This document shows positions 8,982-15,329 of a stretch of DNA of 23,838 nucleotides, piece after piece. Origin of the DNA: a virus; IMG/VR virus record IMGVR_UViG_3300025646_000371, positions 1 to 23,838 of that record. One strand, 5' to 3'. Made by a program: the position numbers and the translations under genes. The notes beneath the pieces are model-generated. The model was not told the origin of the DNA. It saw only the letters and a program-made list of their open reading frames with translations, and searched no databases. Position 1 is the stretch's first letter, and each line of letters starts with the position of its first letter.

Positions 8982-9683
8982 ATGGCTAAGAAACCCAAAA
9001 ACAAAAATTATTTCACCCAGGACACCGAAGATGCAATTGTAGCTTATAATTTAGCTAAAACTCCTGAAGAAAAAGAAAAATTATACCACGAGCGTATACA
9101 TTATCCGTTTTTTAAGTTAACGGAAAATATTATTCATACGTTTAAATTTTATTATACTGAAGTGGAAAATATTGAAGACCTCCAACATGAGGTCATCACT
9201 TTTCTACTCACTAAAATGCACCATTTTAACCCTGAAAGAGGGGCTAAAGCATATTCATATTTTGGGACTATTGCTAAAAGATACTTGATTATATCAAACC
9301 AGAAAAACTATAAAAAACGCATAGATAAAGCCCCAGTAGAAGAACTTTATAAAGATGATAATCATTCTTATACATTAGATGATGTTACTTATGATAACGA
9401 TCCTTTAAGTAACTATATTGACTTATTTGTAGAATATTGTTCTGAAAATCTCTTTGAAATGTTCCCTAAAAATAATGATGCAGCTGTTGCAGATGCTATT
9501 TTAGAATTATTTCGTAAAAGAGAAGATATAGATGTATTTAATAAAAAGGCCCTTTACATCTATATTAGAGAAATGGTTGATGCAAAAACTCCTAAAATCA
9601 CTAAAGTAGCTAACCAACTCTATAGTGTATTTAAAGATAATTATATATTTTATCTTGATAATGGTTATGTAGAATTCGAGTAA
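8982..9683 (+). CDS. 55: gp55-like late-transcription sigma factor
   Basis: 233 residues, resembling T4-type gp55, the small sigma-70-related protein that redirects host RNA polymerase to late promoters. The sigma region 2-like core is at residues 54-110: FKFYYTEVENIEDLQHEV, FLLTKMHHFNPERG and KAYSYFGTIAKRYLI followed by a basic NQKNYKKR. No region 4 (-35 recognition) is evident, in keeping with gp55. The length compares with 185 residues in T4 gp55, the extra being mainly C-terminal. It lies directly ahead of the baseplate genes it would be expected to activate. Partner proteins (sliding clamp, gp33-type coactivator) are not in this window. Confidence 0.85.
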   Translation: MAKKPKNKNYFTQDTEDAIVAYNLAKTPEEKEKLYHERIHYPFFKLTENIIHTFKFYYTEVENIEDLQHEVITFLLTKMHHFNPERGAKAYSYFGTIAKRYLIISNQKNYKKRIDKAPVEELYKDDNHSYTLDDVTYDNDPLSNYIDLFVEYCSENLFEMFPKNNDAAVADAILELFRKREDIDVFNKKALYIYIREMVDAKTPKITKVANQLYSVFKDNYIFYLDNGYVEFE

Positions 9684-10054: not shown

Positions 10055-11680
10055 ATGGCTTTTATTAAAGATACTTCTACACCTCAGGGTAATTCCCCTA
10101 TAAATTCTCCAATAGTTCCTGCTAGGGTATTAGCTATAGATCAAAGCAATACTCCTAATAATGGGGTTATTACTGTAGAAGTTTTATCACCTCAAGGTTC
10201 ATTACCTAATCAAACTCAAGTAGAAGCTTTTCCTTTATTTCCTAATATTAAAAACTATCCATTGATAAATGAGATGGTTTTATTAGTAGCAGCTCCTACT
10301 TCCGCTTATTCTAATAATTCTCTTTTATCTAATTATTATTACCTCCCCCCAGTTAATATTTGGAATGATCCTCAAGTTAACCCAACTCCAAACCCATACC
10401 AAAACATTAACACCACAAGTCAAAATAAATCTGTAGCCGAGGTAGAAGCAGGTTCTCCTAATCAGTCTAACCCACAAGATGTTCCTACTTTTAAACCTGG
10501 TACTTATTTTGAAGAAAAAGATAATATATATCCTTTATACCCATTTGAGGGAGATGTTATTATAGAAGGTAGATTTGGTAATAGTATCCGATTTGGTAGT
10601 ACCGATGTGGTATATGCTGAAAGTTATACTACATCCCCAGTTAGTAAAACTTTTGCAGCTCAAACAACCTACTCTTCAGGTGAAACCGGAATTAATAATA
10701 ATTTAGATAGTCAATTAAATTCAATTGATGCCCAAGTTGCTCAATTTAAACAACAATACCCTGATGCTCAGGTAGCTGTTGTAGTTGAAGGTGGTGAATC
10801 GCGTGTTACTAATCCTAATAATTTACCCCAAGGTGCTTTAGCAGAACAAAGAGCAAATAATGTTAGTACTGCTATAGGAAATTACTCTAATATATCTACT
10901 ACTAGTGTAACTAAAAGTACTACTTTAGGTGATACTCCCTATACTAGAGGGCAAGATTCAGCTAATGATCCTAGATATACAGCTGAACAATACTCTAAAG
11001 TAACAGTCCAGGTTAAAGGTACTCAAGTTACCCCAACCCCATCAATGCCCTCATCTTTAAATGTTTGGTCTGAAAGTCCTAAAAATGGAGACCCTATTAC
11101 TATTATTAGAAATGGTCAACCTAAAGACTTAACATCTCCTGTATCATCTTCAATTGTAGAAAATCCTAATACTGATCTATCTTCAATTTGGTTAACTTCA
11201 ACCCAAAAAATTCCAATTGAAGCATCCTCTATTAATGATTATTATTCTTATGAAGAAAATAAACCTACAGCTCCTAACCAATATGTAGGAAATCAAATTA
11301 TATTGAATTCTGAAAGATTATTCTTTAATTCAAAAACAGATCATATTCTTTTTTCTTCGGCTAAAAGTATTAATTTAAATGCTCAAGAATCTATAAATTT
11401 TGATACTATTGGTCCTGTAGTAATGCAAGCCAAAGAAGTATATTTAGGTGGTAAAGAAGAAAGCCAACCATTGATTTTAGGTCAAGATATGATTGATTTA
11501 TTAAGTGACATTTTAGGAGATTTAGGTAGTTTAGCTAATGCTTTACAAAATCAAATAGGAGTACCTGCTGGTAGTGTTTTGGCCCCTACTAATTTAGTAG
11601 CACAAAGTGTCAATGCTAAAATCTCAGGCTATAAACAAAGGTTACAAGATACTTTATCTAAAACTATCAAGACAGTATAA
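10055..11680 (+). CDS. 5: gp5-like baseplate hub/spike with OmpA-like insert
   Basis: 541 residues, T4 gp5-like tail spike/hub. The N-terminal OB-fold-like part (residues 20-100) is followed by a linker and YPFEGDVIIEGRFGNSIRFG (162-181), a gp5 signature in T4-like phages. The C-terminal beta part runs from NGDPITIIRNGQ (344-355) through strand repeats such as SINLNAQESINFD (438-450). Between them, about 200-322, is an OmpA/MotB-like module: a helix ending QQYPDAQVAVVVEGGES and then LAEQRANNVSTAI. T4 gp5 carries a lysozyme in the middle; no lysozyme motif is seen here. The protein should form the trimeric membrane-piercing needle. One-base overlap (TAATG) with the next gene. Confidence 0.8.
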   Translation: MAFIKDTSTPQGNSPINSPIVPARVLAIDQSNTPNNGVITVEVLSPQGSLPNQTQVEAFPLFPNIKNYPLINEMVLLVAAPTSAYSNNSLLSNYYYLPPVNIWNDPQVNPTPNPYQNINTTSQNKSVAEVEAGSPNQSNPQDVPTFKPGTYFEEKDNIYPLYPFEGDVIIEGRFGNSIRFGSTDVVYAESYTTSPVSKTFAAQTTYSSGETGINNNLDSQLNSIDAQVAQFKQQYPDAQVAVVVEGGESRVTNPNNLPQGALAEQRANNVSTAIGNYSNISTTSVTKSTTLGDTPYTRGQDSANDPRYTAEQYSKVTVQVKGTQVTPTPSMPSSLNVWSESPKNGDPITIIRNGQPKDLTSPVSSSIVENPNTDLSSIWLTSTQKIPIEASSINDYYSYEENKPTAPNQYVGNQIILNSERLFFNSKTDHILFSSAKSINLNAQESINFDTIGPVVMQAKEVYLGGKEESQPLILGQDMIDLLSDILGDLGSLANALQNQIGVPAGSVLAPTNLVAQSVNAKISGYKQRLQDTLSKTIKTV

Positions 11681-12682: not shown

Positions 12683-13063
12683 ATGAAAACAACAGAACTT
12701 AAAAAATTAATTAAAGAAGCTGTTAAAGAAGCTATTCAAGAGGAAATCAAAGATATCCTTTTGGAGGCAGTTCGTTCACCTAAAGCACCAATTCAGGAAA
12801 CTTATAAAATGCACCCTGTGACTGTTGATGCTCCTACAACTCAAATTCCACAAAAATCAGCGGCTGAAAGAAGAGCAATGTATGAAAGTATGATTAGTGA
12901 TATGAAAACCTTAAACTTTACATCAGCTGATGCTAGAACTATGGGAACAGATGCTAATACTCTTCAAGTATCCCCTGGTATGAGTACTGTTGGTGAAGGA
13001 ACCGCTCTTCCTTCTGGTAACGTAGGTTTAGACCAAATTATGGGTTTGATTAATAAGAAATAA
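12683..13063 (+). CDS. Small structural or assembly protein with helical N-terminus
   Basis: 126 residues, unknown family. The first 30 residues are a strongly amphipathic, charged helix (KTTELKKLIKEAVKEAIQEE), probably a coiled coil. The remainder is Ala/Thr/Ser-rich and likely flexible (for example SAAERRAMYES near 59-69 and the Gly/Ser-rich 95-112). I recall virion-associated proteins of T4-like phages that begin with such a helix, but a role cannot be assigned. The box ATATTTATAAC (12671-12681) ends one base before the ATG. The gp25-like gene follows with a one-base overlap. Confidence 0.65.
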   Translation: MKTTELKKLIKEAVKEAIQEEIKDILLEAVRSPKAPIQETYKMHPVTVDAPTTQIPQKSAAERRAMYESMISDMKTLNFTSADARTMGTDANTLQVSPGMSTVGEGTALPSGNVGLDQIMGLINKK

Positions 13064-13470
13064 TGGCTTACAACGCTCAACAAATATCGCCTATTGATTT
13101 CCAACCTAGTGTAGGTGTTGGTGTTAGCTTACCATTTAATGGTCCTGCTTGTTTTAATACCACATATACCACAAAAGAAGCTATTAAGTCTAACTTAGTT
13201 AACTGGTTTTTAACTAATAAAGGTGAAAGACCTCTAAATCCTGATTTTGGTGGGAATTTAAGACAGTATATCTTTGAGCAAATTGTAGAAGATAATTTAG
13301 ATTTTCTTAAAGAAGATATTCAATCTCAATTAGCAGCTTATTTCCCTTCAGTTAAAATTAGTAGTTTAGACGTTTTAGCTCAAGAAGATTATAATACTAT
13401 ATTAGTAGTTTTAAAATATACTATTCAAAACACTAATATCAATGACCAAATTAACCTAACGTTTAGCTAA
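13063..13470 (+). CDS. 25: gp25-like baseplate wedge protein
   Basis: 135 residues, about the length of T4 gp25 (132) and of the gp25/W-type baseplate family that starts sheath assembly at the baseplate. The family core is clear: TTKEAIKSNLVNWFLTNKGE (residues 36-55) followed by RPLNPDFGGNLRQYIFE (56-72), with the conserved E-R-P and F-G residues, then helix and strands (QLAAYFPSVKISSLDV). One-base overlaps on both sides place it in a coupled series with the unknown upstream and the gp6-like gene downstream. gp25 and gp6 are adjacent in many contractile tails, which supports both calls. Confidence 0.92.
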   Translation: MAYNAQQISPIDFQPSVGVGVSLPFNGPACFNTTYTTKEAIKSNLVNWFLTNKGERPLNPDFGGNLRQYIFEQIVEDNLDFLKEDIQSQLAAYFPSVKISSLDVLAQEDYNTILVVLKYTIQNTNINDQINLTFS

Positions 13471-15329
13471 TGGCAGTAAATAGAGACATAAAGTATATTA
13501 ATAGGGACTTTAATAGTTTAAGACAGAATTTAATTAATTATTCTAAAACTTATTTCCCTACTACATATAATGACTTCACAGCTACCTCACCAGGTATGAT
13601 GTTTATGGAATTATCATCATATGTTGGTGATGTTCTCTCATTCTATCAAGATAACCAATTCCAAGAAACCTTCTTACAATATGCTCGTGAAGCTAAAAAT
13701 TTATTTGATTTAGCTTACATGATGGGGTATCGCCCTAAAGTAACAGGTGTAGCTACAGTTGATGTAGATTTTTACCAACAAGTTCCTGCTAAAAGTGATG
13801 GTGCTGGTGGGTATATCCCAGATTATGATTATGCTTTACTAATCGGAGAAAATTCTCAAATTACTGCTCAATCTAATTCTTCTACCAAATTCCTAGTTGA
13901 AGACCCAGTAGACTTTGATACTTCATCTTCTTTAGATCCTACTATTGTTTCTATATATGAACAAAGTGGAGCAACAGTTAATACTTTCCTTTTAAAGAAA
14001 ACCAGAAAAGCAATTTCAGCTGCTATTAATACAACTCAATTTAGCTTTACAACCCCAGAGGAATTTGCTACTAGAACTATTACAGCTAATAACATTATTG
14101 GTATATTAGATATTACTGATTCTGATGGTAATATTTGGTATGAGGTACCTTATTTAGGTCAAGAAATGGTATATGATTCTCTTAAGAATACTAATCCAAA
14201 TGATCCTAATACCTATACTGATATTGATGCTCCTTATTTGTTAAAATTAAAACAAGTAGCTAGAAGATTTACTACTCGTTTTAATAATACTACAACATTA
14301 CAAATCCAATTTGGAGCTGGTACTACCTCAGATGTAAATGAAGAAGTAACACCTAATGCTGATAATGTTGGTTTAGGTTTACCATTCGAAAAAGATAAAT
14401 TAACAGCTGCTTACTCACCACAAAACTTTATATTTACCAATACTTATGGTATTGCACCTTCAAATACAACTTTAACAGTTAGATATTTAACAGGTGGTGG
14501 TGCTACAGCAAACGTTCCTGCTGGAGATTTAACTACATTATCTAATAGTGCTGTAAATTTCCAAGTTTCAAATTTAGTACAATCCACAGCCAATACAATA
14601 TTTAATACATTACAAGTAGTAAACCCTTCAGCTGCAACTGGAGGTAGTGATGGTGATACAAACGAAGAAATTAGACAAAATTCAATTTCAAATTTCTCAA
14701 CCCAGCTTCGTAGTGTAACTCAAGATGATTATTTAGTAAGAGCACTTTCTATGCCTGCTAAATATGGTGTTGTTTCTAAGGCATACATTGAAAAAACAAA
14801 ATTAGATAATGTTATGCCTGGGGAGATTCCTTCAACCCTAGATTTATATGTTTTAAGTATTGATGCTGATAATCATTTAGCCAATGCTAGTACAGCTTTA
14901 AAACAAAATCTCCAAACTTACTTATCACAATATAGAATAATTGGAGATTCTATTAACATTAAAAACGCTTTTATAGTTAATATTGGTGTTGATTTTGAAA
15001 TCTCAGTAAGACCTAACTTTAATAGTAATGAAGTTCTTAGAAAATGTTTATTAGAACTCCAAGCATATTTTAGCTTAGATAATTGGCAGATTAATGAACC
15101 TATTTTAATTAAACAGATTTTCTTATTATTAGATGCAGTTCAAGGGGTTCAAACAGTTTCAAATGTAAATATAACTAATAAGGTAGGAACAGCTCTAGGA
15201 TATTCTCAATATGCTTACGATATTACAGGAGCTACCCTAAACCAGGTAGTTTACCCTTCATTAGATCCTATGATTTTTGAAGTAAAATACCCTACAACTG
15301 ATATTAAAGGAAAAGTAGTAACATTATAA
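13470..15329 (+). CDS. 6: gp6-like (baseplate J-type) wedge protein
   Basis: 619 residues, slightly shorter than T4 gp6 (660). It is a baseplate wedge protein whose dimers join neighbouring wedges into the baseplate ring. The N-terminal signature RDIKYINRDFNSLRQNLINY (residues 5-24), then SPGMMFMELSSYVGDVLSFYQ (40-60) and LFDLAYMMGYRP (78-89), is characteristic of gp6 in T4-like phages. Later TNEEIRQNSISNFSTQLRSV and DYLVRALSMP (about 395-430) match the J-domain pattern. It follows the gp25-like gene with a one-base overlap, the standard partner order. Confidence 0.9.
   Translation: MAVNRDIKYINRDFNSLRQNLINYSKTYFPTTYNDFTATSPGMMFMELSSYVGDVLSFYQDNQFQETFLQYAREAKNLFDLAYMMGYRPKVTGVATVDVDFYQQVPAKSDGAGGYIPDYDYALLIGENSQITAQSNSSTKFLVEDPVDFDTSSSLDPTIVSIYEQSGATVNTFLLKKTRKAISAAINTTQFSFTTPEEFATRTITANNIIGILDITDSDGNIWYEVPYLGQEMVYDSLKNTNPNDPNTYTDIDAPYLLKLKQVARRFTTRFNNTTTLQIQFGAGTTSDVNEEVTPNADNVGLGLPFEKDKLTAAYSPQNFIFTNTYGIAPSNTTLTVRYLTGGGATANVPAGDLTTLSNSAVNFQVSNLVQSTANTIFNTLQVVNPSAATGGSDGDTNEEIRQNSISNFSTQLRSVTQDDYLVRALSMPAKYGVVSKAYIEKTKLDNVMPGEIPSTLDLYVLSIDADNHLANASTALKQNLQTYLSQYRIIGDSINIKNAFIVNIGVDFEISVRPNFNSNEVLRKCLLELQAYFSLDNWQINEPILIKQIFLLLDAVQGVQTVSNVNITNKVGTALGYSQYAYDITGATLNQVVYPSLDPMIFEVKYPTTDIKGKVVTL

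Follow-up and report, generated by a model that had tools for sequence, protein, structure and literature searches.

The sequence studied here, referred to as the window, is a virus record of 23,838 bases, in which an open frame encodes a spike-like baseplate protein of 541 residues with an OmpA-like insert (Table 1). Downstream of the spike gene are encoded a protein of 328 residues, whose gene accompanies the spike gene throughout the family as a conserved partner, a 126-residue protein and the gp25-like and gp6/Baseplate_J-like wedge proteins. These baseplate neighbours place the 541-residue protein within the baseplate cluster of a contractile-tailed phage. Wedge protein identity is 47.6% to Flavobacterium phage immuto and 43.5% to Microcystis phage Mel-JY01, and the source is best explained as a contractile-tailed phage related to immuto.

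Table 1. Features of the spike gene and its baseplate neighbours (window positions; residues of the 541-residue protein).
Feature	Residues	Positions	Strand	Basis or remark
Spike-like baseplate protein with OmpA-like insert	541 aa	10055..11680	+	open frame
Five-stranded N-terminal domain	20-97	10112..10345	+	AlphaFold2 secondary structure
Left flanking motif EGRFGNSIRFG	171-181	10565..10597	+	family-conserved
Inserted module, ~150 residues	186-335	10610..11059	+	short loop instead in 58/58 aligned insert-less relatives
OmpA-like fold core (predicted)	189-329	10619..11041	+	AlphaFold2, Foldseek, VIA-align
S249, at A. baumannii OmpA Asp271 position	249	10799..10801	+	Ser in 10/10 members
R266, at OmpA Arg286 position	266	10850..10852	+	Arg in 10/10 members
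Subfamily signature G.TPY..G.D...DP.....Q	292-312	10928..10990	+	third crevice loop and helix 3
Right flanking motif NGDPITIIRNGQ	344-355	11084..11119	+	
Strand-rich C-terminal stretch	347-470	11093..11464	+	AlphaFold2
Two C-terminal helices	476-531	11480..11647	+	AlphaFold2
Next gene, conserved partner of the spike gene	328 aa	11680..12666	+	
gp25-like baseplate wedge protein		13063..13470	+	PF04965, E 1.7e-10
gp6/Baseplate_J-like wedge protein		13470..15329	+	Baseplate_J-like match, E 9.5e-5

Several further genes can be described in and around this cluster. The window encodes a sigma-70 region 2-like protein upstream of the baseplate genes (8982-9683; E 1.8e-4, just below cut-off) and a protein with a T5orf172/MUG113 domain (2050-2523). 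The original prediction supposed that a lysin is supplied elsewhere; no peptidoglycan hydrolase domain was detected among the open reading frames scanned in the window, which is a genome fragment. In relatives, the product of the partner gene ranges from 128 to 810 residues, some copies being cut by contig ends; the intact-looking ones span ~270 to 810 residues and differ in their N- and C-terminal extensions, and the 810-residue protein has a LysM match below threshold (L085, E 0.024). Two relatives, the viral contig L002 and Mel-JY01, carry an extra gene directly after the spike gene. In L002 (6037-6936), this is a DUF5675 gene (E 6.2e-9) that separates the spike gene from its usual neighbour, while the gene at the matching position in Mel-JY01 is annotated as a putative chitinase and is possibly wall-related. 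Both of these relatives are without the insert; the insert-bearing variants have no consistent additional neighbour gene.

Direct searches say little about the identity of the protein. Whole-protein searches of Pfam and PHROGs returned nothing informative, a lysozyme profile found no match in the 541 residues, and a comparison of T4 gp5 with the spike backbone gave no significant match with hmmsearch and an E-value of 0.26 over a short stretch with hhalign. Among its relatives, a large family from aquatic phages with at least 589 members in viral contigs, seven weakly match DUF2345, a domain of the VgrG needle region (best E 0.043), and weak profile matches to PHROGs baseplate families also occur. 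The predicted model adds a strand pattern compatible with an OB fold followed by a C-terminal beta-helical needle: by strand count, residues 20-97 may be OB-fold-like, and residues 347-470 are the probable needle. The OmpA part took up the results of the structure searches, and VIA-align with the full model returned OmpA matches only, so that the remainder of the spike was barely probed. From gene order, predicted strands and the weak profile matches, we infer that the protein is a central spike of the gp5/VgrG type; as such, it would form a trimer and the insert would be exposed to the periplasm.

The motifs quoted in the original prediction are present in the translation, and the two that flank the insert are, as had been anticipated, nearly adjacent in relatives: 9-27 residues separate them in nearly all relatives, compared with ~163 in carriers. 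In an alignment of 65 sequences, 58 of them insert-less, residues 190-321 are aligned in none of the 58, whereas all of them have residues opposite 183-185 and again from 336 on. The insertion site is a short loop with EGRFGNSIRFGS on one side and WS..NGDPITIIRNGQ on the other, and immuto, Mel-JY01, LR756508 and the viral contigs L002 and L003 all do without approximately residues 184-336 (in L003, the spike gene occupies two frames, 520-1479 and 1488-1970, either a real split or a sequencing error). The proposal that the domain stands in place of a lysozyme is not borne out and we reject it, as the relatives examined have only the short loop at this site, with neither a lysozyme nor a domain of another kind.

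Our survey covered ~130 distinct family sequences, drawn from the best 80 of the at least 589 relatives and from a second sample seeded from immuto. Seven divergent variants carry the insert, in 15 contigs including the window and always at the identical site: the window (to which L001 is identical), L010, L011, L012, L013, L014 and L016, with near-identical copies of carrier variants in further contigs. The second sample contained no long insert in any member; in 30 of its 49 loci the pattern for the right-hand motif did not fit, and the motif was assessed visually from the sequence. An assembly chimera is ruled out by the recurrence of divergent insert variants in independent contigs. Used as a single protein query against viral contigs, the insert retrieved only the identical contig. 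A DNA pattern search found 18 viral stretches, of which those readable carry an OmpA-like domain, and seven matches in cellular genomes, all spurious-looking; this was one pattern, by which absence of the subfamily from cells is not demonstrable. That we are dealing with a true insertion, and with the fold described below, is close to certain.

The OmpA-type domain is a compact fold that bacteria use for attachment to the cell wall. The original prediction placed such a fold in the spike, and structure prediction of the segment agrees. The AlphaFold2 model of residues 189-329 runs strand-helix-strand-helix-strand-helix-strand, the beta-alpha-beta-alpha-beta-alpha-beta order of the OmpA/Pal/MotB C-terminal domain, with block mean pLDDT mostly 86-97; the domain modelled alone scored 87.6, with a pTM of 0.78. 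All top Foldseek matches in the PDB belong to the OmpA family (3td3 at E 2.5e-7 for the domain and 1.5e-6 for the full model), and VIA-align likewise places Acinetobacter OmpA 3td3/3td5 first (Z 12.2-12.4, rmsd 2.7-2.9 Å), followed in these searches by OprF, Pal, MotB and TagL. The signal in sequence profiles is fainter. Pfam OmpA (PF00691) matches the segment alone at E 0.001 and 19.8 bits, short of the curated cut-off of 27.2 bits, and is absent at E<=10 when the whole 541-residue protein is searched; a relative of the domain in L099 reaches E 1.4e-4 and 22.6 bits, also below the curated cut-off. Aligned profile to profile, the segment and OmpA domains of bacterial genomes match co-linearly over their whole length, with an E-value of 2.8e-4 in one comparison and an hhalign probability of just 18%. 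Residues 186-335 are thus confidently predicted to form a domain of the OmpA/Pal/MotB C-terminal type.

In TagL, diaminopimelate is contacted by Asp486, Asn494, Leu497 and Arg501 (PMC8253398), which by spacing correspond to D271, N279, L282 and R286 of A. baumannii OmpA. Both D271A and R286A were reported to be critical in the latter, and D271A alone was reported to break binding (PMC6572160). The window sequence VEGGES aligns without gaps to IEGHTD of OmpA, so D271 is replaced by S249. Of the other contacts, Leu (L262 in the window) is kept in all ten members of the subfamily, as is the Arg, while Asn is Q259 in the window and is found only in two jumbo-phage members, having been lost in the spike-type members. 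In the same gap-free alignment, E248 falls at the Thr270 position; all seven spike-type members have this Glu, and the jumbo-phage members have Ala there. Standard-type diaminopimelate binding is therefore not supported by the sequences, because Asp is Ser in every one of the ten.

The crevice is nevertheless the most conserved part of the domain. Invariant in the ten members are Ser249, Val251, Leu262, Arg266, Gly292, Tyr296, Gly299, Asp301, Asp305, Pro306 and Gln312. With conserved columns defined as those at 90% or more, the loops lining the OmpA-domain ligand crevice, which make up 37 of 141 positions, hold 12 of the 16 conserved columns (hypergeometric p 1.9e-5), and 11 of 17 when the spike-type members are taken alone (n=7, p 4e-4). 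Of the ten, L095 and L099 were found by a pattern requiring some of the conserved residues. These p-values are a guide only, since the sequences share ancestry.

On a backbone tree built by a quick method without the insert columns, presence of the insert requires four changes, at least three of them forced by well-supported branches: L014 is a carrier on a distant branch, and the insert is missing from L015, L021 and L023, whose branches are next to carriers or in their midst. From this patchiness we conclude that the insert moves as a unit. Between L012 and L013, dS is similar in insert (0.32) and backbone (0.38), while dN is 4x higher in the insert, giving a dN/dS of 0.26 versus 0.055. The insert is under purifying selection, and yet its protein sequence changes faster than that of the backbone, as would fit a part that contacts the host.

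The same OmpA-like subfamily also occurs outside spikes, in a 286-residue protein of the 636-kb phage LR756504, in one of 293 residues from a 167-kb contig and in one of 485 residues found in three contigs. The N-termini of these proteins (MKYLKKYQDYGKINEA, MKNYVKTFEQFMATKINEA and MKIHLSESQVKKLISDYKTINEQ), judged by eye, resemble the T4 capsid-targeting sequence, by which core proteins are directed into the head (PMC9958956). The large-phage loci that combine the subfamily with such an N-terminus are 5395-6255 in L009, 10414-11292 in L099 and 11613-13067 in L095, and these N-termini suggest that the proteins are packaged in the capsid and possibly injected. Relatives of this kind point to a role for the domain that is broader than wall gripping. 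We tentatively raise the possibility that the phage-specific subfamily, with its Ser/Arg crevice and G.TPY..G.D...DP signature, acts as a mobile cassette for envelope recognition, delivered by spike or by capsid and binding a ligand unlike that of the standard diaminopimelate site.

The reading that we prefer, and hold with moderate confidence, is that of a gp5/VgrG-like spike with an OmpA-like cassette in the loop at the base of its needle, making a non-catalytic contact in the periplasm through the crevice. A cassette encoding the domain has been inserted into this loop and, should the spike be trimeric, three OmpA-like domains would ring the shaft. Contraction of the sheath would carry them into the periplasm, where their most likely partner, reached through the conserved crevice and without catalysis, would be the cell wall or a different periplasmic ligand; this contact may hold or position the spike. 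We thus favour an envelope-contacting module that probably binds the cell wall by a changed chemistry. The position of the domain and the conservation of the crevice make contact with the wall plausible, and the loss of the Asp weakens the case; that loss also counts against the preferred reading, together with the loss of the Asn in spike-type members, the lack of detectable gp5 homology, the indirect basis of the spike identity, the absence of the domain from most of the family and its occurrence in proteins that look capsid-packaged. Peptidoglycan as the ligand is the least certain part, because the canonical Asp has become an invariant Ser. Of the contacts that matter for the earlier notion of a needle that grips the wall, L262 and R266 are kept in a conserved crevice, and Asp and Asn have become S249 and Q259, so that gripping by the standard type of binding is not supported; as a whole, the earlier interpretation is partly supported, while the observation of an OmpA-like insert is confirmed. 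Neither of the outcomes named in advance as refuting it, a fold unlike OmpA or a segment shared by all gp5 relatives as part of the needle, was observed.

The strength of conservation in the ligand crevice, including its Arg and Leu contacts, is what separates this reading from a possible but less probable one, in which the domain no longer binds the wall and instead acts as a protein-protein module, for example linking a separate hydrolase of the wall, a baseplate protein or a tip protein to the spike. A pure spacer or docking surface would need no such crevice, and the insert-bearing variants have no extra neighbour gene that recurs among them; on the other hand, replacement of Asp by Ser throughout, loss of the Asn in spike-type members, an adjacent and possibly wall-related gene in some family members, and the occurrence of the subfamily in other phages, on its own or in other fusions, would all suit docking. 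Canonical OmpA-type peptidoglycan binding, with Glu248 or another acidic residue substituting for Asp271, appears unlikely: Glu248 sits at the Thr270 position and is not kept in the jumbo-phage members, and the Asn contact is gone, even though Glu248 is invariant among spike-type members, R266 and L262 are retained, and the top structural match, 3td5, is an OmpA domain whose structure was determined in the presence of a diaminopimelate pentapeptide. We find it hardly credible that the insert is a functionless passenger tolerated in an exposed loop. Its patchy presence and its absence from most relatives are what one could cite in favour, but dN/dS is 0.26-0.31 in the closer pairs, indicating purifying selection, and the crevice residues are strongly conserved among members whose inserts share only 35-43% identity overall.

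If the preferred reading is right, a non-catalytic domain of a wall-binding fold, swapped in and out of a spike loop, would represent a different way of handling the periplasm during puncture. The insert is a ready domain for envelope-binding tests, and the loss of the textbook Asp alongside a conserved crevice makes the nature of its ligand a clear and testable question. The well-known tail spikes have, to our knowledge, either a wall-cutting enzyme or no extra domain, and we found no report of a phage spike with an OmpA-like domain in the open-access literature. An OmpA-like domain-containing protein of an uncultured phage, A0A6J5KTY6 (411 residues), aligns over 122 columns with an rmsd of 2.8, through its OmpA-like domain alone. 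Compared with PF00691 domains such as 3td3/3td5 (114-118 residues), the insert has the same predicted fold and the same crevice Arg and Leu, but it is 10% identical in the structural alignment, has Ser for Asp271 and bears its own G.TPY..G.D...DP.....Q signature; it also resides in a phage structural protein, whereas PF00691 examples such as A. baumannii OmpA are envelope proteins. The best sequence-profile match in the PDB is the OmpA-like domain of Francisella FopA1 (6u83, E 0.0043), which also has Ser at the aligned position (GYASQ), although FopA1 is a bacterial outer-membrane-associated protein and not a phage spike. In type VI secretion, the wall anchor TagL and its relatives (5m38, 4b62) likewise have an OmpA-like domain in the service of a contractile injection machine; that domain, however, belongs to the membrane complex of the firing cell, whereas the phage domain is part of the spike and lacks the Asp. 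Finally, the protein resembles T4 gp5 in its presumed role, in its probable strand-rich needle, in the gp25 and gp6 homologues of its gene cluster, and in carrying an additional domain that follows the N-terminal one and precedes the needle. In T4 gp5, that domain is a lysozyme; here, it is OmpA-like, and most relatives of the window spike have no domain at this position at all.
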